A DNA stretch of 64,000 bases from Ammoniphilus oxalaticus (lineage in GTDB: Bacteria > Bacillota > Bacilli > Aneurinibacillales > RAOX-1). The first letter of the stretch is position 1. Each line of letters begins with the position of its first letter. The DNA lies in the NCBI RefSeq assembly GCF_003609605.1, contig NZ_MCHY01000007.1, forward strand, positions 124,001-188,000, written 5' to 3'. Shown in pieces: positions 4,449 through 48,245 of this stretch. The notes below the pieces were generated by a model, which was given only the letters and a program-made list of their open reading frames with translations, was not told the origin of the DNA and searched no databases. Position numbers and translations under genes: made by a program.

Positions 4449-4568
4449 CGCGCGTGTATTCAAGATTGTGTTCAAAATAGACGCGAAATCCCTTTTGTAC
4501 TTTATACAAAGTCAAAAAGACCTTATAATAGGAAGTGACGAAAGTAAATTTTGGAGGGGATTAAGCAT

Positions 4569-5498
4569 ATGTCGTTACGTCCGCATATAGAAGAAGCGAT
4601 TCGCAACATGCCAACGGCTCAACCGGAAAAGCCGGAGGAAATGTTATTATCTCGTAAGGTGGAGCATGATGTGCTCACACCAGTAGAAGAGCGTCCAGCT
4701 GTTCATAAAATGGAAGATTTTACAGTTCCAGGACCGGCAGGGGATATTCCGATCCGCGTCTATTCCCCAGAAGGGGAAGGACCGTTTCCGATCCTTATGT
4801 TCTTCCATGGCGGCGGATTCGTCTTGCAAAGTATTGAAACGCATGATGAATTGTGCCGTTACTTAACATTAAATACAGGCTGTAAAGTCGTTTCGGTTCA
4901 ATATCGTTTGGCTCCTGAAAATCCGTTTCCAGCAGCTCCCGAGGATTGTTACGCGGCCACAAAATGGGCAGCGGAAAACGCGGATAAAATCGATGGAGAC
5001 GTATCCAATTTATTTGTTACAGGCGATAGCTCTGGCGGAAACTTAGCAGCGGTCGTTTGTTTAATGGCCAAAGACAGAGGTGGTCCGAAAATCGCCAAGC
5101 AAGTGTTGATCTATCCGATCACCGATTACCATACGAAAGACGAGACATCTCGCTATCCATCATATGAAGAAAATGCGCTTGGTTACGGTTTGTCCAACAT
5201 TAAGATGAGTCATTACTGGGCTCTTTATGTGAAAGATCGCAAAGATGGCGAACATCCTTACGCGTCGCCGATTCGCGCGGAGGATTTAAGCGGCTTGCCG
5301 CCGGCGCTCGTGATTAGCATCGAAAAAGATGTGCTGCGGGACGAAGGCGAGGCCTACGGAAAGCGATTAGAAGAAGCAGGTGTTCCCGTTACGTTTGAAA
5401 GAGTGCAGGGTACGATTCATGGCTTCCTAAAAGCGTTCCCGAAAGCGGAGGAAAGTGTAGAAACGTTTGAATTGATTAATGCTTATTTAAAAGAATAG
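4569..5498 (+). CDS. Alpha/beta hydrolase (hormone-sensitive lipase family esterase)
   Basis: Carboxylesterase of 309 aa. The oxyanion-hole motif HGGGF is at residues 80-84, the nucleophile elbow GDSSGG places Ser154 as catalytic, and Asp254 (EKDVLRDE) and His284 (TIHGF) complete the triad. There is no signal peptide, so it is cytoplasmic. The family hydrolyses short to medium chain esters. The ATG at 4569 follows GGAGGGG; it stands alone between the lipoprotein gene and a terminator. The natural substrate cannot be told from sequence. Confidence 0.88.
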   Translation: MSLRPHIEEAIRNMPTAQPEKPEEMLLSRKVEHDVLTPVEERPAVHKMEDFTVPGPAGDIPIRVYSPEGEGPFPILMFFHGGGFVLQSIETHDELCRYLTLNTGCKVVSVQYRLAPENPFPAAPEDCYAATKWAAENADKIDGDVSNLFVTGDSSGGNLAAVVCLMAKDRGGPKIAKQVLIYPITDYHTKDETSRYPSYEENALGYGLSNIKMSHYWALYVKDRKDGEHPYASPIRAEDLSGLPPALVISIEKDVLRDEGEAYGKRLEEAGVPVTFERVQGTIHGFLKAFPKAEESVETFELINAYLKE

Positions 5499-5512
5499 GT
5501 TTTGATTCCTTG

Positions 5513-5543
5513 CGGGGCTGTCGATGAAGACAGTCCCGTTTTT
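5513..5543 (+). terminator. Rho-independent terminator after esterase gene
   Basis: Stem CGGGGCTGTC with GACAGTCCCG (one mismatch), then T5. Confidence 0.85.
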
Positions 5544-5612: not shown

Positions 5613-5645
5613 GAGCCTGATTTCATTGTAATTGAAATCAGGCTC
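5613..5645. terminator. Second hairpin between esterase and ccdA-like operon
   Basis: A perfect 13-bp stem, GAGCCTGATTTCA and its complement, separated by a seven-base loop and followed by an AT-rich tract. It may be a backup terminator or a remnant of a small repeated element. Confidence 0.5.
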
Positions 5646-5786: not shown

Positions 5787-6533
5787 GTGGATCAATTTTC
5801 AGTATTGCTCACGTTTGGCGTCGGCGCTCTTGCTTTTTGCGCCCCTTGAGTGCTTTCCATGATGCCCGCTTTGTTCGGTTATTTAAGCGGGGAAGCAGCC
5901 AGTTCGGTTGCGGATGGAAAAACATTGCGACAAAGATTTTGGAAAAATGCTTTATTTTTTATCCTGGGCTTTATCGTCGTGATGATGACACTCGGGGCGA
6001 TCGCTTCCTTTATTGGCGAATCCGTGCGATCGATTGTGCAGTGGGTACAGGTTGTAGCTGGATTCATCTTGATCTTATTAGGGTTTTACCAGATGAAGAT
6101 CTTGCGATTTAAGCTTCCAAACCAACTAGTTAAGCTTGAAACAGCGGCAACGGGTTCAGTGGGCTCGGTTAAACCTGGGTACGTTCGTTCTTTTGTAGCG
6201 GGCATGGTAATCGCGCCTGGGTGGGGTCCGATCTTTTTAGGAACCGTTTTACTCGTGATTACGGTCAACGGTAATTTTCTAAGCAATTTGGCCCTCATGT
6301 TTGCTTATTGTTTAGGTTTCGCCCTTATGTTTTTGCTCTCATTCCTGTTTTTTGAGCCGCTGCGACTTTTGACTCAAAAATTGGGCGACAAAATGAGACG
6401 GGTTGAACAAGCAGGCGGAGCCTTGATGATGTCGATTGGTGTCCTCATGGTCGTTGGTAAGTTGAATTGGATTACCGATTTAGGAAAATGGAAAATTAGC
6501 GTGGCCATTAAAGGATTGCTTGGAATGAACTAA
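5787..6533 (+). CDS. CcdA-like membrane protein with in-frame TGA (predicted selenoprotein)
   Basis: Thiol-disulfide membrane transporter of the CcdA/DsbD family, 248 aa with about six membrane segments, if the TGA at 5847-5849 is read as selenocysteine 21. The start is GTG 5787, eight bases after AAAGGAGG. The first membrane segment then reads GVGALAFCAP-U-VLSMMPALFGYLSGE, which lines up residue for residue with the conserved CcdA motif (SPCVLPL.P..LSYLSG); the TGA sits on its redox cysteine. The TGA splits the frame, so a conventional call would start at 5850 and lose the first helix. The second redox cysteine usually found in the GW.PC.GP motif is absent here (APGWGPIFLG), but Cys18 makes a CxxU pair with residue 21. 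First gene of a five-gene operon with TusA, DsrE and OsmC-like proteins, which suggests moving reducing power or sulfur across the membrane. Confidence 0.88.
5847..5891 (+). promoter_or_regulatory. TGA codon and SECIS-like hairpin in ccdA-like gene
   Basis: The in-frame TGA (5847-5849) is followed by a perfect 7-bp stem, CCCGCTT at 5865-5871 with AAGCGGG at 5885-5891, around a 13-base loop that begins TG. The loop starts 22 nt after the TGA. A bacterial SECIS is a stem-loop inside the coding sequence just downstream of the UGA, with a G near the start of the loop; this fits. Confidence 0.7.
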
Positions 6534-6548
6534 GCGAGGTGAAGTATC

Positions 6549-6779
6549 TTGTATCAAGTGGCTAGGGTGTATGACGCCGGTCCAACAGGATGCGGTGAAT
6601 TGATCATGAATTTGTTTATGACGATGAAAAAGATGGAGTCGCAACAGATCATTGAAGTGATCTCATATGATCTGGGCGCGCGAGAAGATATCCCCGCCTG
6701 GTGCCGACTACAAGGTCATACGTTATTAGACCGTAAAGACGAAGGCGGCATCCATCACTATTATATTCAAAAAAAATAA
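6549..6779 (+). CDS. TusA-like sulfurtransferase family protein
   Basis: Small cytoplasmic protein of 76 aa with the TusA (SirA-like) fold pattern. Near the N-terminus the conserved cysteine sits in DAGPTGCGEL instead of the usual CPxP motif, followed by an amphipathic helix, a strand and a second cysteine in IPAWCR. TusA proteins carry sulfur as a persulfide between partners. Start is TTG 6549, seven bases after GAGGTG. It lies 15 bp downstream of the CcdA-like gene and 22 bp upstream of the DsrE-like gene. The PxWCR cysteine is shared with the N-terminal half of the OsmC fusion at 7177, which suggests two related carriers in one pathway. Confidence 0.75.
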   Translation: MYQVARVYDAGPTGCGELIMNLFMTMKKMESQQIIEVISYDLGAREDIPAWCRLQGHTLLDRKDEGGIHHYYIQKK

Positions 6780-6801
6780 AACATAACTGGAGGAAAAGAA
6801 G

Positions 6802-7161
6802 ATGTCAAAATTAGCAGTGAGTATTACAAGCGCAAAAAATGATTCGGATAAAGCGACAGTAGGTTTTGTTGTCGCCAACGCCGCGGTCGCGTCTGGTCAG
6901 GAAACGGTTGTATTTCTTAATGTGGAAGGATCGTATTTAGCGTCGAAAGGGTATGCTGATGAAATCCATGAAGAAGGTTTTGCGCCATTGAAACAATTAA
7001 TGGATCAATTTATAGAAGCTGGCGGGACAGTTTGGGTGTGCAGCCCTTGCTACAATAAGCGTGATTTAACCGAGGAGCAACTAATTGCTGGGGCGACGAT
7101 TGTCGGCGGAGCAAGGTTAGTGGAATTTTTATCGCAAGGCGCCGCTTGTATTACATACTAG
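6802..7161 (+). CDS. DsrE/DsrF-like family protein
   Basis: A 119-aa cytoplasmic protein of the DsrE superfamily, whose members bind and pass on sulfane sulfur. The Rossmann-like layout is visible: an N-terminal strand, a helix after AVASGQET, and a conserved cysteine pair in TVWVCSPCY near residue 78, where sulfur-carrying DsrE/TusD proteins have their active cysteine. ATG 6802 follows GGAGG. Its position between two TusA-like genes supports a sulfur relay. A peroxiredoxin-family label is sometimes given to such proteins, without enzymatic support. Confidence 0.82.
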   Translation: MSKLAVSITSAKNDSDKATVGFVVANAAVASGQETVVFLNVEGSYLASKGYADEIHEEGFAPLKQLMDQFIEAGGTVWVCSPCYNKRDLTEEQLIAGATIVGGARLVEFLSQGAACITY

Positions 7162-7176
7162 GAGGCATAAAAAACA

Positions 7177-7896
7177 ATGGACTTTCCAAACCCACAGGCG
7201 ATCTGTGATGGCGGAGACCTGGACTGCGGTTCAGGTCTTCTGCTCATCATTAAAAATAGTATCGATCCATTGCAAGTTGGAAACGTGTTAGAAGTGCGAA
7301 GTAGAGATAAAACGGTTGCGGATGATTTGCCGATCTGGTGTCGGATGGTCAAGCATGATTTTATCGGCGCGCGACCGAATGAACTGGATGTGAGCTATTT
7401 CATTCGTAAAGGTGGGGAGGAGGACGATTTACAACAAGATTTAGAAGCGGCCCGAGGCTATCAGTGGGCGGTTCGTGTTCGCGGTGAGGCGGGCGCGACA
7501 GCGCAAATTTATAGCCGCAATCATTCGTTTCGATCGGGTCAACCCGCTGATTTCAGCGCGCAAGTCGATCAACCCAGCAGCGTTGATTATTTATTGGCTG
7601 CGCTCGGCTCTTGTTTGACGGTCGGGTTTCAACTTAACTGTTCCCGCCAAAACCTAATCATAGATGCGGTCGAATGCAGTTTGCGCGGAAGACTAGACAA
7701 TGTGCTCTATCATTTGCAACTGGAAGATACGGGCACACCTGCCTTTTCTAAGATAACCGGAACGTTTTATGTCAGTTCGCCTGAAGAGGAAGACAAATTA
7801 GAAGAAGTTTGGCAACGCGTAATTGAACGTTCGCCGATCTACCAAACATTATGTAAACAGGTAGAGTTGAAAATTAATTTATCGGTTGTATTTTAA
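7177..7896 (+). CDS. TusA-like / OsmC-like fusion protein
   Basis: A 239-aa cytoplasmic fusion. Residues 1-75 are TusA-like: CDGGDLDCGSGLLLI carries the N-terminal cysteine and LPIWCRMVKHDF the second, matching the separate TusA-like protein encoded at 6549. Residues about 95-239 are OsmC/Ohr-like: SSVDYLLAALGSC is the OsmC signature with its first reactive cysteine, and further cysteines occur at LNCSRQN, VECSL and TLCKQ. OsmC-family proteins reduce peroxides or bind reactive sulfur species. ATG 7177 lies eight bases after AGGAGG and 15 bp after the DsrE-like gene. The fusion argues that the TusA sulfur carrier hands its cargo to the OsmC thiols. Confidence 0.8.
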   Translation: MDFPNPQAICDGGDLDCGSGLLLIIKNSIDPLQVGNVLEVRSRDKTVADDLPIWCRMVKHDFIGARPNELDVSYFIRKGGEEDDLQQDLEAARGYQWAVRVRGEAGATAQIYSRNHSFRSGQPADFSAQVDQPSSVDYLLAALGSCLTVGFQLNCSRQNLIIDAVECSLRGRLDNVLYHLQLEDTGTPAFSKITGTFYVSSPEEEDKLEEVWQRVIERSPIYQTLCKQVELKINLSVVF

Positions 7897-7920
7897 TGAA
7901 TGATAGGGAGGATGATGTTG

Positions 7921-9087
7921 ATGTCATTGCCATTATTTCCAACCACAGTCGTCGGAAGTTGGCCACGGACGAGAGAAGTGCTTGTTGGCCTAAGAGAAAA
8001 AAGAGCGGGGCGGATAACGGACGAAGAGTTTCAAAAAATCGCTGACCAAGCGACGCTTGATTGTTTGCGAGCTCAAGAGGAAGTTGGTTTAGATATTGTG
8101 TCCGATGGGGAGCAACGGCGCGATAATTTTATCTCTTTTGTCGCGGAAAAACTAGACAACGTGAAGATGTTAACCGTTTCCGAATTACTCGACTATGTTG
8201 AAGATAAAGCCGGCTTCGAAGAGATTCTTGGGGCGTTAGATGTGCCCGCATATTCGCTTTCCAACCCAGCCGCCGTCGGTAAAATTAAAAGAAAAACGTC
8301 ACTTGCGCTGGATGAATATGAATTTTTGCGCCAACACACTGACCGTCCTATTAAAATCGCTTTACCAGGTCCGTACCTTTTAACGCGGTCAATGTGGGTG
8401 GAAGGGTTATCTGCGGCGACGTATCCTACGAAAGAGTCATTAGCGGAAGATGTCGTTCGGATTTTACGAGAAGAGCTAGAGGATTTGATTAAGGCAGGCG
8501 TCTTCTTTATTCAACTAGATGAACCAGTCTTGACTGAACTTGTTTTTACACAGAAGAACGCGAATCGGACATTTATGTGCGGCGCTCTGACAGCGAAAGC
8601 GGACAAAGAGGAGGAGCTTCGTTTTGCGACAGATCTGATTAATCAAGTAGTCGATGATATGCGTGGACGAGGAACGCTAATTGGCGTTCATATTTGTCGC
8701 GGCAACTGGAGCACTCAGGAGGACGTTCTTTTACGCGGGCCTTATTCGCCGCTGATTCCATACTTGGAGCAAATGGATGTTGACCAATTCATTCTTGAAT
8801 ATGCGACGCCGCGCGCGGGGGAACTTGATGTGATCAAGAGCCTCGAAGGGAAGCAGCTAGGTCTAGGTATTGTCAATCCTCGAACAGAGGAGATTGAGTC
8901 TATTGAACAACTCGTAGAGCGGGGAAGAGAGGCGGCTAATTTTTTAGCGCCTGAGCATATTTTTCTCAATCCTGACTGCGGTTTTGGGACATTTGCCCAG
9001 CGACCGATGAACTCAATCGAGAACGCTAAACAGAAACTAAAGGTGATGGTTGAGGCCGCCAAACGATTGAGACAACAAATAGATTGA
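7921..9087 (+). CDS. Cobalamin-independent methionine synthase family protein (core MetE-like)
   Basis: 388-aa cytoplasmic enzyme corresponding to the C-terminal catalytic barrel of MetE, without the N-terminal duplicated domain. It starts with the family signature PTTVVGSWPR; zinc-ligand positions are present as HICRGNW (His and Cys), a Glu in LDEPVL, and NPDCGFG near the C-terminus. Core MetE proteins make methionine from homocysteine with a methyl donor that may not be methyl-folate. ATG 7921 is chosen because GGGAGG at 7905-7910 precedes it by ten bases. It closes the operon with the sulfur-carrier genes, hinting that the carried sulfur ends in methionine or that the enzyme recycles a thiol methyl group. 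Confidence 0.87.
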   Translation: MSLPLFPTTVVGSWPRTREVLVGLREKRAGRITDEEFQKIADQATLDCLRAQEEVGLDIVSDGEQRRDNFISFVAEKLDNVKMLTVSELLDYVEDKAGFEEILGALDVPAYSLSNPAAVGKIKRKTSLALDEYEFLRQHTDRPIKIALPGPYLLTRSMWVEGLSAATYPTKESLAEDVVRILREELEDLIKAGVFFIQLDEPVLTELVFTQKNANRTFMCGALTAKADKEEELRFATDLINQVVDDMRGRGTLIGVHICRGNWSTQEDVLLRGPYSPLIPYLEQMDVDQFILEYATPRAGELDVIKSLEGKQLGLGIVNPRTEEIESIEQLVERGREAANFLAPEHIFLNPDCGFGTFAQRPMNSIENAKQKLKVMVEAAKRLRQQID

Positions 9088-44595: not shown

Positions 44596-45096
44596 TTAGT
44601 GAACAGAAGGAGGGCCTTTACGCAAACCTTCGCCCATTCCTTTCATGAATTCAAGCGCTGTATATAACGTAGAATTCACATCTGAGTCCCGCAAGTTTTT
44701 GGTTAAGCCCCATAGACCGCTAGGTTTTCCTTCGTCTGTTGGGTCGCTTGTTGTTTTCTGTAAGCCATGCGCGACCCCATTTAAGATGCGGCTTAATTGT
44801 TCCGGTTCAATTTGACCTATAAATCTTGCTAAGCTCGTCACGTTTTTAACCGAGTGATAGACAGACTGTTGGTTTAATTGCTGGAGGGCCAGCATGCTAA
44901 CTTCCTCCCGCGTCTTCAATACCCCTTGTAAAATGTCCAATAGTCCAGCTTCATGCGCTTCCTTGAGGATGTCTAAAAAAACGATTAACGCATCCTTACT
45001 TTCCGCGACAGCCCCAAGCACCTCTTGGATATCTTGACTTTGCGCTTCCGCTGGATCTATCTGCTCCCTCTCGATGTTACGGATGGCTTTGGCCAT
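44596..45096 (-). CDS. DUF1641 protein, YrhD-like partner of formate dehydrogenase
   Basis: 166-aa helical protein of the DUF1641 family. In Bacillus the yrhD gene lies next to the formate dehydrogenase-like gene yrhE, as here. The GGAGG eight bases before ATG 45096 lies inside the end of the dehydrogenase gene, giving a 20-base overlap and coupled translation. The region VLKTREEVSMLALQQL and the ending MKGMGEGLRKG are family-like. The function is unknown; it may help anchor or mature the dehydrogenase. Confidence 0.85.
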   Translation of the reverse strand: MAKAIRNIEREQIDPAEAQSQDIQEVLGAVAESKDALIVFLDILKEAHEAGLLDILQGVLKTREEVSMLALQQLNQQSVYHSVKNVTSLARFIGQIEPEQLSRILNGVAHGLQKTTSDPTDEGKPSGLWGLTKNLRDSDVNSTLYTALEFMKGMGEGLRKGPPSVH

Positions 45097-48058
45097 GTTG
45101 TTCGCCTCCATTTTCTAACCATTCTGGGATCGGCGTGAAGTCTGCCCGTTTCCATTTGTCTTCCACTTTGATGCCGATTTGAGGGACACGGTTACCAAAA
45201 CGATGATTCACATCAGGCAAAGGTGGTTCTCCTTGCGCTTCGAGCACGACCATTTTCACGTTCATTTCCTTGTAATTTGGCGTATGGGTAATCCGATCAT
45301 GATAGCTACTCGTCAAACGGTTCACCATGTCTTCATCCGTTGTTGAGTTCATCGTTAGATATAGCTCATTCCCTTTTACTGTATCTGTTACATGAGCTCT
45401 CACTTCGACCTCTCCATATGGGGAAGTCAACTGAACTAAAGCTCCATCGTCAATCCCTCGTTGTTCAGCTAATTCCGGCGAAACCTCTAGCCACGGCTGA
45501 GATACTTTGTGAACAATCCCCGGCACACGGTACGTTAAATTCCCTTCATGGAAATGTTCAAGCAACCTTCCGTTGTTTAAGTGCAGATCATAATCTTCTC
45601 CAGGATCAAATGGCGGCGTCCAATCGACTGGGAACAAGCGGGCTTTGCCATCTGGAAAAGCAAATTTATCGGTGTAAAGCAGTTCAGTGTCTGTTCCATC
45701 GGCTTGAACTGGCCATAGTTGCGAGTTGAACCCTTCCAAACGTTCGTAGCTAACCCCCGCAAAAACAGGCGCCAACCGCGCGGCTTCGGCCATAATTTCG
45801 CTTGGATGCGTATAATTCCAATTGGCTCCGAGTTTGTTAGCGAGCAGTTGGAAAATTTCCCAATCGGGTTTCGACTCGCCCATCGGTTCTAACACACGGT
45901 AAAACCGTTGAATGCGTCGCTCCGTGTTCGTAAAGGTTCCCTCTTTTTCCAAACTCGGCGCGGCTGGCAACACAACATCCGCAAACTGAGCGGTTCTTGA
46001 AAAAAAGATGTCCTGGACAACAAAAAAGTCTAGTTTTTCAAACGCAGAGTCAACATGGTTGCTATTCGAGTCGACAATGGCCATTTCTTCTCCGAACAAA
46101 TACATCGCTTTGAGCTTGCCTTTATGAATCATCTCGACCATTTGATGGTTGTTCAATCCAGGCTTAGCGGGTAGCTCAACACCCCAAGCATGCCCGTATT
46201 TTTTCCGAACTTGCGCGTCTTCCACGGGCTCATATCCAGGCATCCAAGCAGGCATCGTGCCGAAATCGCAAGCGCCTTGAACGTTATTATGGCCACGCAG
46301 CGGATAAGCTCCAGCCCCTGGTTTACCGTAATTGCCCGTAACGAGCAACAAATTAGATATAGCTGTGCTCGTATCCGTCGCCCCGAGGTGTTGGGTAACC
46401 CCCATCCCCCATAAAATACAGACACCTTCTGCTTCGTGTACCATTTTAGCCAGTTGGATCAAGGTCTGTTGCTCAATTCCTGTCGTTTCTTCAGCGTATT
46501 CCAGCGTAAACTTTTCTAAAGATGCAACGTATTCTTCATATCCATTGACACGTTCTTCAATAAACGATTGCGCCCCCCACCCTTGATCAATGATATATTT
46601 GGTAATCGCATTCAATAACACCAAGTCTGTCGATGGTTTAGGGTGAATAAACAAATCCGCTCGTTCTGCAAGTTCATTCTTCCTTAAATCAACAACCGCT
46701 AATTTTTGCCCATGTAATTTATGAGCCCGTTTAATCCGAGTTGCCAACACGGGATGGGATTCCGCGGGATTCGCTCCAATCACGAGCACGAGACCAGCGG
46801 AGTAAATATCTTGAATCGTTCCAGAGTCCCCTCCGATTCCGACAGTTCGAATTAGACCAGCGGTAGCTGGGGACTGACAATATCGTGAACAGTTGTCCAC
46901 ATTATTTGTACCCATCACTGCGCGGGCCAACTTTTGAAACAAATAGTTCTCTTCATTCGTACACTTCGATGAGGCAATGTATCCGATGGAATCAGAACCC
47001 TCTCGTTCCTTGATTTCTGTTAACTTAGAGGCGATTAAATCAAGCGCCTCATCCCAGCTCGCCTCGACAAAGCGGTCTCCTTTTCGGATCAATGGCTTTG
47101 TTAACCGCTCCTCGCTGTTGACAAAATCCCAGCCAAATTTCCCTTTAATGCAAGTGGAAATTCCGTTGGCAGGCGCCTCCTGTTGCGGCTCGACTTTTAG
47201 TATTTTCCGATCTTTTGTCCAGATTTCAAAACTACAGCCAACCCCGCAATACGTACAGACTGTTTTTGTCCGCTTGATCCGAGCTTTTCTCATCGCTGCT
47301 TCCATCTCAGATATCACAAAGATTTCTTTGTAACCTGGCTCGATTTCTTTCGTGAGATCGATCATCGGCTCAAGCGCTTGTTTCGGTATCCCTGTCAAAT
47401 AACCGGCCTCACCGAGCATTGATTTTTCCATTAGAGCATTACAAGGACATACAGTGACACAATGCCCACACGATACGCAGGAGGATTCATCGATCGACAC
47501 ATCGTTATCCCAAATGACGCGGGGATGTTCGCGGTTCCAATCGATCGTTAATGTTTCGTTGACTTGTAAATCTTGACAAGCCTCCACACATAAACCACAT
47601 AAAATACATTGATCTGGTTCGTAACGATAGAATGGATGGGTATTGTCGGGAGGATACGGTTTCGGTTTAAATTCATACTGCTGATGCTCAATTTCGAAAT
47701 ATTCCGCTGTATTATGGACGGTACAATTTCCATTGTTGTTATCGCACACTGTGCAGTACAGTTCATGGCGCGTTAAAATGCGTTCCATTCCTTCACGTTG
47801 AGCCGCCTTCGCCTTGTCTGAAATAGAGCTGATTTCCATGCCCGGTTTAGCTTCAGTCGCGCACGAGCGAACCAGTTCCCCGTTTATTTCAACATAACAT
47901 GTATCACACGACTGGATTGCTCCCAATTGATCATGAAAACAAATACTTGGGATGTACAAGTCTTGTTCTCTTGCCGCCTCTAAAACCTTTTGACCCGGCT
48001 TTGCAAACAAATCTTGGTTATTGATCCGAATCGAAAATTGCTCCTGTCTCGATCCCAT
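45077..48058 (-). CDS. Formate dehydrogenase-like molybdopterin oxidoreductase, alpha subunit (Cys form)
   Basis: 993-aa cytoplasmic oxidoreductase of the YrhE/YjgC family. From the N-terminus: a 2Fe-2S ferredoxin-like domain (SCDTCYVEINGELVRSC), a histidine/cysteine cluster site (HELYCTVCDNNNGNC), two 4Fe-4S sites (CILCGLC, CVSCGHCVTVCPC), the catalytic-domain cluster (CTYCGVGCSFE) and the bis-MGD domain. The catalytic residue is an ordinary cysteine in CSRYCQSPATAG, where some formate dehydrogenases have Sec. ATG 48058 follows AAGGGAG. Oxidation of formate coupled to NAD is likely; no fdhD is in the window. Confidence 0.9.
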   Translation of the reverse strand: MGSRQEQFSIRINNQDLFAKPGQKVLEAAREQDLYIPSICFHDQLGAIQSCDTCYVEINGELVRSCATEAKPGMEISSISDKAKAAQREGMERILTRHELYCTVCDNNNGNCTVHNTAEYFEIEHQQYEFKPKPYPPDNTHPFYRYEPDQCILCGLCVEACQDLQVNETLTIDWNREHPRVIWDNDVSIDESSCVSCGHCVTVCPCNALMEKSMLGEAGYLTGIPKQALEPMIDLTKEIEPGYKEIFVISEMEAAMRKARIKRTKTVCTYCGVGCSFEIWTKDRKILKVEPQQEAPANGISTCIKGKFGWDFVNSEERLTKPLIRKGDRFVEASWDEALDLIASKLTEIKEREGSDSIGYIASSKCTNEENYLFQKLARAVMGTNNVDNCSRYCQSPATAGLIRTVGIGGDSGTIQDIYSAGLVLVIGANPAESHPVLATRIKRAHKLHGQKLAVVDLRKNELAERADLFIHPKPSTDLVLLNAITKYIIDQGWGAQSFIEERVNGYEEYVASLEKFTLEYAEETTGIEQQTLIQLAKMVHEAEGVCILWGMGVTQHLGATDTSTAISNLLLVTGNYGKPGAGAYPLRGHNNVQGACDFGTMPAWMPGYEPVEDAQVRKKYGHAWGVELPAKPGLNNHQMVEMIHKGKLKAMYLFGEEMAIVDSNSNHVDSAFEKLDFFVVQDIFFSRTAQFADVVLPAAPSLEKEGTFTNTERRIQRFYRVLEPMGESKPDWEIFQLLANKLGANWNYTHPSEIMAEAARLAPVFAGVSYERLEGFNSQLWPVQADGTDTELLYTDKFAFPDGKARLFPVDWTPPFDPGEDYDLHLNNGRLLEHFHEGNLTYRVPGIVHKVSQPWLEVSPELAEQRGIDDGALVQLTSPYGEVEVRAHVTDTVKGNELYLTMNSTTDEDMVNRLTSSYHDRITHTPNYKEMNVKMVVLEAQGEPPLPDVNHRFGNRVPQIGIKVEDKWKRADFTPIPEWLENGGEQHGQSHP

Positions 48059-48245
48059 TAAATCCAACTCCCTTCAACTTACCTGTACCTTATTTTGGTT
48101 CAGAGTTGGTATTTATATGTAAAAATTTTCAATTTAATTGAATAATAGGATGAGGATCGAGGGTGGTAAGCGAAAAGGGCAAAGGCGCGCAGAAAACCGA
48201 ACTGAATGAGCACTGAAATTCCCGCTATTTTCACTAGAACACTTC

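Follow-up and report, generated by a model that had tools for sequence, protein, structure and literature searches.

The question raised by a 64,000-nucleotide stretch of the Ammoniphilus oxalaticus genome (contig NZ_MCHY01000007.1, positions 124,001 to 188,000; the window hereafter) is what is accomplished by five tightly packed genes at window positions 5787-9087, which encode a CcdA-like membrane protein, a TusA-like protein, a DsrE-like protein, a TusA/OsmC fusion and a core MetE. The original prediction, made from the DNA letters and their translations, regarded these genes as a relay that could deliver reduced sulfur, or (in brackets) selenium, toward homocysteine and methionine, with electrons entering through the CcdA-like protein. 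In the current study, all five same-strand (+) reading frames were confirmed, and reading frames, packing and Pfam families agreed with the gene types that had been named. As described below, the five packed genes look like an undescribed kit for selenium handling.

The occurrence of these genes was examined in a class sample of 398 genomes and in a wider scan, limited to one genome per species, which employed two peptide patterns, both drawn from the fusion's TusA half, and recovered 88 relatives; counts of loci given below refer to the best 80 of these 88. Because the patterns were taken from the TusA half, the wider scan misses relatives that lack them. In the class sample, the full-length fusion was found in 10 of 398 genomes, comprising all four from the window's family plus members of three other families (three weaker matches to OsmC only were left out of this count), and in 10/10 the genes for DsrE, the fusion and MetE followed one another in that order. 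Likewise, DsrE preceded and MetE followed the fusion in 80/80 loci of the wider scan, with TusA in front on the same strand in 77. These loci were located in Bacillaceae, Paenibacillus, Alicyclobacillus, Sulfoacidibacillus and Sulfobacillus, and in metagenome-assembled genomes (MAGs) of Acidobacteria, Planctomycetota and NC10. The core of the locus is a widespread four-gene cassette, TusA-DsrE-TusA/OsmC-MetE, whose conservation goes far beyond chance. The original prediction was right in seeing one functional unit; a lack of joint conservation elsewhere, which it named as grounds for refutation, is contradicted by a unit conserved across phyla. CcdA was rejected as a core member, given that it adjoins only a few cassettes.

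The cassette was closely tied to the decoding of selenocysteine (Sec). When the 10 class-sample genomes with the cassette were compared with the whole class sample, selB scored above its family cut-off in 10/10 versus 84/398; the chance of this co-occurrence is 1.1e-7 if the genomes are independent, an assumption that holds only in part, although the genomes come from four families. Among further cassette genomes, selB exceeded the cut-off in 63 of 72 (48 of 50 plus 15 of 22). The host genome (3.3 Mb) itself contains selB (391 bits; cut-off, 242), and a tRNA-Sec gene adjoins it. Moreover, a LysR_Se gene was found near 26 of the 80 loci, matched in 26/26 by the selenium-metabolism model NF040786 and divergent in every case except L064. 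At the latter locus, from Paenibacillus thalictri, YedF and YedE/FdhT genes lie upstream of the cassette and selB and selA downstream; two different LysR_Se genes are present there, one on each side of the cassette (L064:4248-9071). In Siminovitchia fortis (L066), selD, selA, tRNA-Sec and selB come after the cassette, and all of this, cassette included, lies within about 7.5 kb; selD (L066:7960-9000, minus strand) carries a TGA in frame (AG-U-GCKI), like other Sec-type SelD genes. Siminovitchia fordii (L067) has the same upstream flank as S. fortis; there, metE ends early and selD-selA-tRNA-Sec-selB is gone, which is likely a natural loss of the Sec trait along with the end of the cassette. 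TIGR03527 (YedF) was above its cut-off in only 4 of the 80 genomes, too few to judge whether YedF and the cassette exclude each other.

The frame of the CcdA gene of the window is open only through the TGA at 5847-5849. Labelling this codon as Sec is justified because selB and tRNA-Sec are present in the genome and relatives have kept the TGA. In all, seven distinct TGA-containing CcdA genes were found, in the window, in genomes G012, G013, G180, G279 and G332, and in Sulfobacillus harzensis (L132); the TGA occupies one same codon in all seven genomes, with identity to the window protein going down to 26%, and the genes are placed 5' of the cassette in some genomes and 3' of metE in others. 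CcdA matches numbered 116 across 80 of the 84 class-sample genomes with selB, and six of them had an in-frame TGA, all six beside a cassette; no in-frame stop was found in the other 110. The protein was then aligned with canonical CcdA proteins (six loci without the canonical motif and two in the wrong frame, L161 and L163, were left out). In common with the CcdA/DsbD membrane thiol reductants, it has the DsbD_TM fold, and Sec occupies the place of the first canonical Cys, in transmembrane helix 1 (TM1), where the canonical SPC motif aligns with APU. It differs from them in that the second canonical Cys, in TM4, is absent from all five aligned Sec-CcdAs, and that a new Cys three residues before Sec creates CxxU (C18-A-P-U21) within the first membrane helix. 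The Sec-CcdAs exceeded the cut-off of no NCBIfam model; the selenoprotein TsoB is a rhodanese/DsbD fusion with UxxxxU, against whose model the window CcdA scored 34.6 bits (cut-off, 805). Judged by its sequence, CcdA is a new CxxU membrane selenoprotein. Because the four-gene core occurs almost only in Sec-making bacteria, and because its CcdA partner is itself a predicted selenoprotein, the cassette very probably serves selenium, not sulfur, handling in Sec-decoding bacteria; the bracketed selenium of the original prediction is supported by the ties to selB, LysR_Se and sel genes.

CPxP is the motif of TusA proteins. In both TusA-like domains it is replaced, by CGEL in the TusA-like protein and by CGSGL in the fusion, while the Cys itself is invariant (for TusA, the 80/80 count takes in L114, L138 and L142, which lack a separate same-strand upstream TusA and where the best match is another protein, e.g. 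the fusion). The TusA half of the fusion is slightly below the Pfam cut-off (25.6 versus 28.6 bits). All 80 loci retain C10, C17 and C55 in the fusion, and in the DsrE-like protein C80 is Cys in 79/79 aligned sequences and C83 in 78/79. The original prediction was right in viewing these as proteins of a chalcogen-relay type. A structure model of the fusion (mean predicted local distance difference test, 90; predicted template modelling score, 0.64) matched OsmC structures and, over a shorter stretch, TusA. In one acidobacterial MAG (L136:2385), a TGA replaces C83 of the DsrE CSPC pair; because a full selB is missing from this genome, where a 134-bit fragment at the edge of a contig is all that was seen, the resulting CxxU DsrE is only a candidate selenoprotein. 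YedF (TIGR03527) likewise combines TusA-like and DsrE-like domains, but joins both in one protein, whereas the genes are separate in the window, whose locus is not among the TIGR03527 matches over the cut-off (110 bits). Lin et al. (2015, PMC5322559), in whose paper the CPxP motif is named for the SirA-like domain, treated YedF, YedE, LysR_Se and DUF3343 as selenium accessory genes, and LysR_Se neighbours the cassette too; the cassette differs from the YedF set by having CGEL/CGSGL rather than CPxP, and by the addition of OsmC and MetE. Their text names none of OsmC, TusA, CcdA or methionine synthase.

From these combined data we infer that selenium, not sulfur, is the cargo, together with a direction of relay, a demethylation step and a role for CcdA. 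The best explanation as a whole, which we consider about evenly balanced between right and wrong, is a selenium-assimilation cassette with Se-demethylation by MetE, a Cys relay to SelD, and CcdA as the reductant. The Zn site of the core MetE would move the methyl group of methylselenol or a relative onto homocysteine, yielding methionine and free selenide; the selenium would be caught in a persulfide-like form (R-S-Se) on the invariant Cys of the TusA-like protein, handed to the DsrE CSPC pair and from there to the TusA/OsmC fusion, from which SelD would receive it for making selenophosphate and selenocysteine. In bacteria that have it, the CxxU CcdA would bring electrons through the membrane and keep the carriers reduced, and electron entry at this protein, as originally predicted, is likely. 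Taken separately, the Cys-bound relay to SelD is somewhat favoured, and demethylation of methyl-selenium by the cassette MetE is less likely than not. Precedents exist among anaerobes, which, according to one study, free selenium from methyl-selenides by corrinoid methyltransferases; type I mlp clusters link methyltransferases to the use of methyl-selenides, and selenocysteine is made by 87% of the species that have such clusters (PMC10418091). Selenium depletion in Methanococcus maripaludis raises TusA and TusD transcripts by 4.5-4.6 log2 along with the SdmABC methyl-selenide system, for reasons that the authors call not obvious (PMC11097638). The type I mlp/SdmABC systems and the cassette share methyltransferases that are linked to selenium genes and to Sec decoding, but the former are corrinoid-dependent and found in anaerobes, whereas the cassette has a MetE core with a homocysteine site and carriers in the same operon. 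No corrinoid protein or reductive activase was recognised by eye among the recurrent neighbours of the 80 loci, for which no profile search was made. By analogy, the cassette would fit a cobalamin-free version of methyl-selenide use joined to carriers. A cobalamin-free route for methylated selenium in this full form, with a fifth type of core MetE, a carrier chain to SelD and, in some bacteria, a CxxU selenoprotein reductant, is rather doubtful.

MetE-type enzymes move a methyl group to homocysteine and do not receive sulfur. The cassette enzyme has the S and E of the active site in 80/80 loci, and the D and the Zn ligands HCEC (the other five residues) in all 78 aligned sequences; the Zn and homocysteine residues in E. 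coli numbering are S433, E484, D599, H641, C643, E665 and C726 (Price et al., 2021, PMC7857596). In L084, L087 and L103, the stops that were flagged for metE lie 5' of the true start. The core methionine synthases MesA-MesD (PMC7857596) have the same catalytic residues; in contrast to them, the cassette MetE falls below every NCBIfam equivalog cut-off, is tied to selenium genes, and mostly coexists with MetE or MetH. The residues are compatible with any Zn-thiol or selenol methyl transfer, in either direction, and selenium may be carried and stored for SelD while MetE does not demethylate at all, clearing homocysteine instead as a salvage methionine synthase, or methylating excess selenide for release. 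This alternative shares the selB and LysR_Se links with the selenium-assimilation reading. No methyl donor protein was seen by eye in the cassette, and a defence against toxic selenium would not need to track selB so closely; we regard it as possible, though with less than even chances.

Peroxidases of the OsmC/Ohr type have two catalytic Cys. In the OsmC domain of the fusion, C146 is kept in 58/80 loci, and the second position is Cys in just 3/80 and Ser in the window; a peroxidase role for this domain was rejected on this basis. That CcdA and OsmC are redox families, and that a Sec-CcdA adjoins the cassette in seven genomes, would suit redox defence or protein repair needing a selenoprotein partner, in which case the selB tie would mean merely that Sec has to be translated. 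Yet most cassette loci show no cassette gene with an in-frame TGA and selB persists nonetheless, the second peroxidase Cys is absent in most, and the presence of LysR_Se and sel genes nearby suggests selenium supply; this explanation is improbable. As for methionine, the host genome has full-length MetE (1116 bits) and MetH (1297 bits), and among 48 cassette genomes tested MetH was over the cut-off in 40, MetE in 12, and at least one of them in 41. The cassette enzyme is therefore mostly not the housekeeping methionine synthase, and it was rejected as the sole one for most genomes. The sulfur relay toward methionine with CcdA as electron source, as the original prediction had it, is very unlikely, for although all families are sulfur handlers by name and 7 of the 48 genomes lack another methionine synthase over the cut-off, MetE transfers methyl rather than sulfur, the host genome has both MetE and MetH, and the selB association and LysR_Se are left unexplained.

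Several observations weigh against the selenium-assimilation reading. With regard to Sec decoding, 9/72 further cassette genomes have no selB over the cut-off; they are mostly MAGs, and one isolate is Siminovitchia fordii (G400; G447 is also among the misses). Conversely, because 74 of the 84 class-sample genomes with selB lack the cassette, Sec synthesis as such can do without it. Moreover, sel genes lie within about 6 kb in just 2/80 loci, and CcdA, an optional partner, is missing beside most of the 80 cassettes. The hairpin after the CcdA TGA, a candidate selenocysteine insertion sequence (SECIS), is weak (z, -0.63, no better than shuffles; six consensus pairs, one with a double change), and an Rfam SECIS search after the TGA gave chance hits only. 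In Ammoniphilus sp. YIM 78166 (L040/L065), tusA, dsrE and the fusion are intact and selB is kept, but only the last 45 codons of ccdA are left and metE is broken by a frame break and a TAA (L040:5950-8720), which implies either that the carriers may work without both or that the operon is decaying. Finally, neutral Se-methyl is a poor methyl donor, the conserved homocysteine site fits plain methionine synthesis too, and the seven genomes mentioned above have no other methionine synthase over the cut-off.

The features of the locus are listed in Table 1. Intergenic gaps are 15, 22, 15 and then 3 or 24 bases, depending on the metE start; the start at 7921 is preceded by a better ribosome site than the alternative at 7900. 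Pfam scores above the cut-off were 47.2 bits for DsbD_TM (cut-off, 27.1), 50 for TusA, 67.5 for DsrE, 53.5 for OsmC and 134 for Meth_synt_2. The hairpin nearer to the operon sits between it and a hydrolase gene (4551-5498).

Table 1. Features of the operon region (window coordinates)
Feature	Position	Strand	Remarks
Terminator-like hairpin	5512-5539		upstream of operon; consensus match only
Terminator-like hairpin	5613..5645	+	upstream of operon; consensus match only
CcdA-like (DsbD_TM) selenoprotein gene	5787..6533	+	GTG start; 248 aa with one predicted Sec
In-frame TGA	5847..5849	+	codon 21 of CcdA, read as Sec; FCAP-TGA-VLSMMP
Candidate SECIS hairpin (weak)	5863..5892	+	just 3' of CcdA TGA
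TusA-like gene	6549..6779	+	C15 in GCGEL; second Cys, C52, in PAWC
DsrE-like gene	6802..7161	+	conserved CSPC = C80, C83
TusA-like/OsmC fusion gene	7177..7896	+	C10, C17, C55
Core MetE-like Zn methyltransferase gene	7921..9087	+	frame open from ATG 7900

Other genes were also noted. A separate OsmC gene lies 3' of metE in 26/80 loci (one as a short match); that of L091 (7957-8397) has ASCE and ARCP motifs, and its best model is OsmC_like_Se (70.7 bits; cut-off, 95). In 11 loci from Acidobacteria, Planctomycetota and NC10, a recurrent exported-looking protein with no NCBIfam match is encoded upstream of tusA on the cassette strand (for example L122:1742-2854, 370 aa). Elsewhere in the window (45077-48067, minus strand) is what we take, by eye, to be a formate dehydrogenase-like molybdoprotein with Cys at the usual Sec place (NCSRYCQSP).

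A search of the literature revealed no report of a CcdA selenoprotein among the titles listed, although a prior description in Haft and Tolstoy (2025) is possible, and no paper joining a selenoprotein with TusA, CcdA and OsmC. The CcdA family is not among the 119 selenoprotein families or subfamilies in Table 1 of a 2026 review, in which the nearest entries are TsoB and a DsrE-like UxxC protein; the same review states that neither the form of selenium in vivo nor the system that donates it has been fully worked out (PMC13188914). It has long been asked how selenium can get to SelD and not be lost among sulfur, and the cassette gives named candidate proteins for that step. This four-gene set follows selB across several phyla, and its carriers include culturable bacteria, Neobacillus and Bacillus methanolicus among them.

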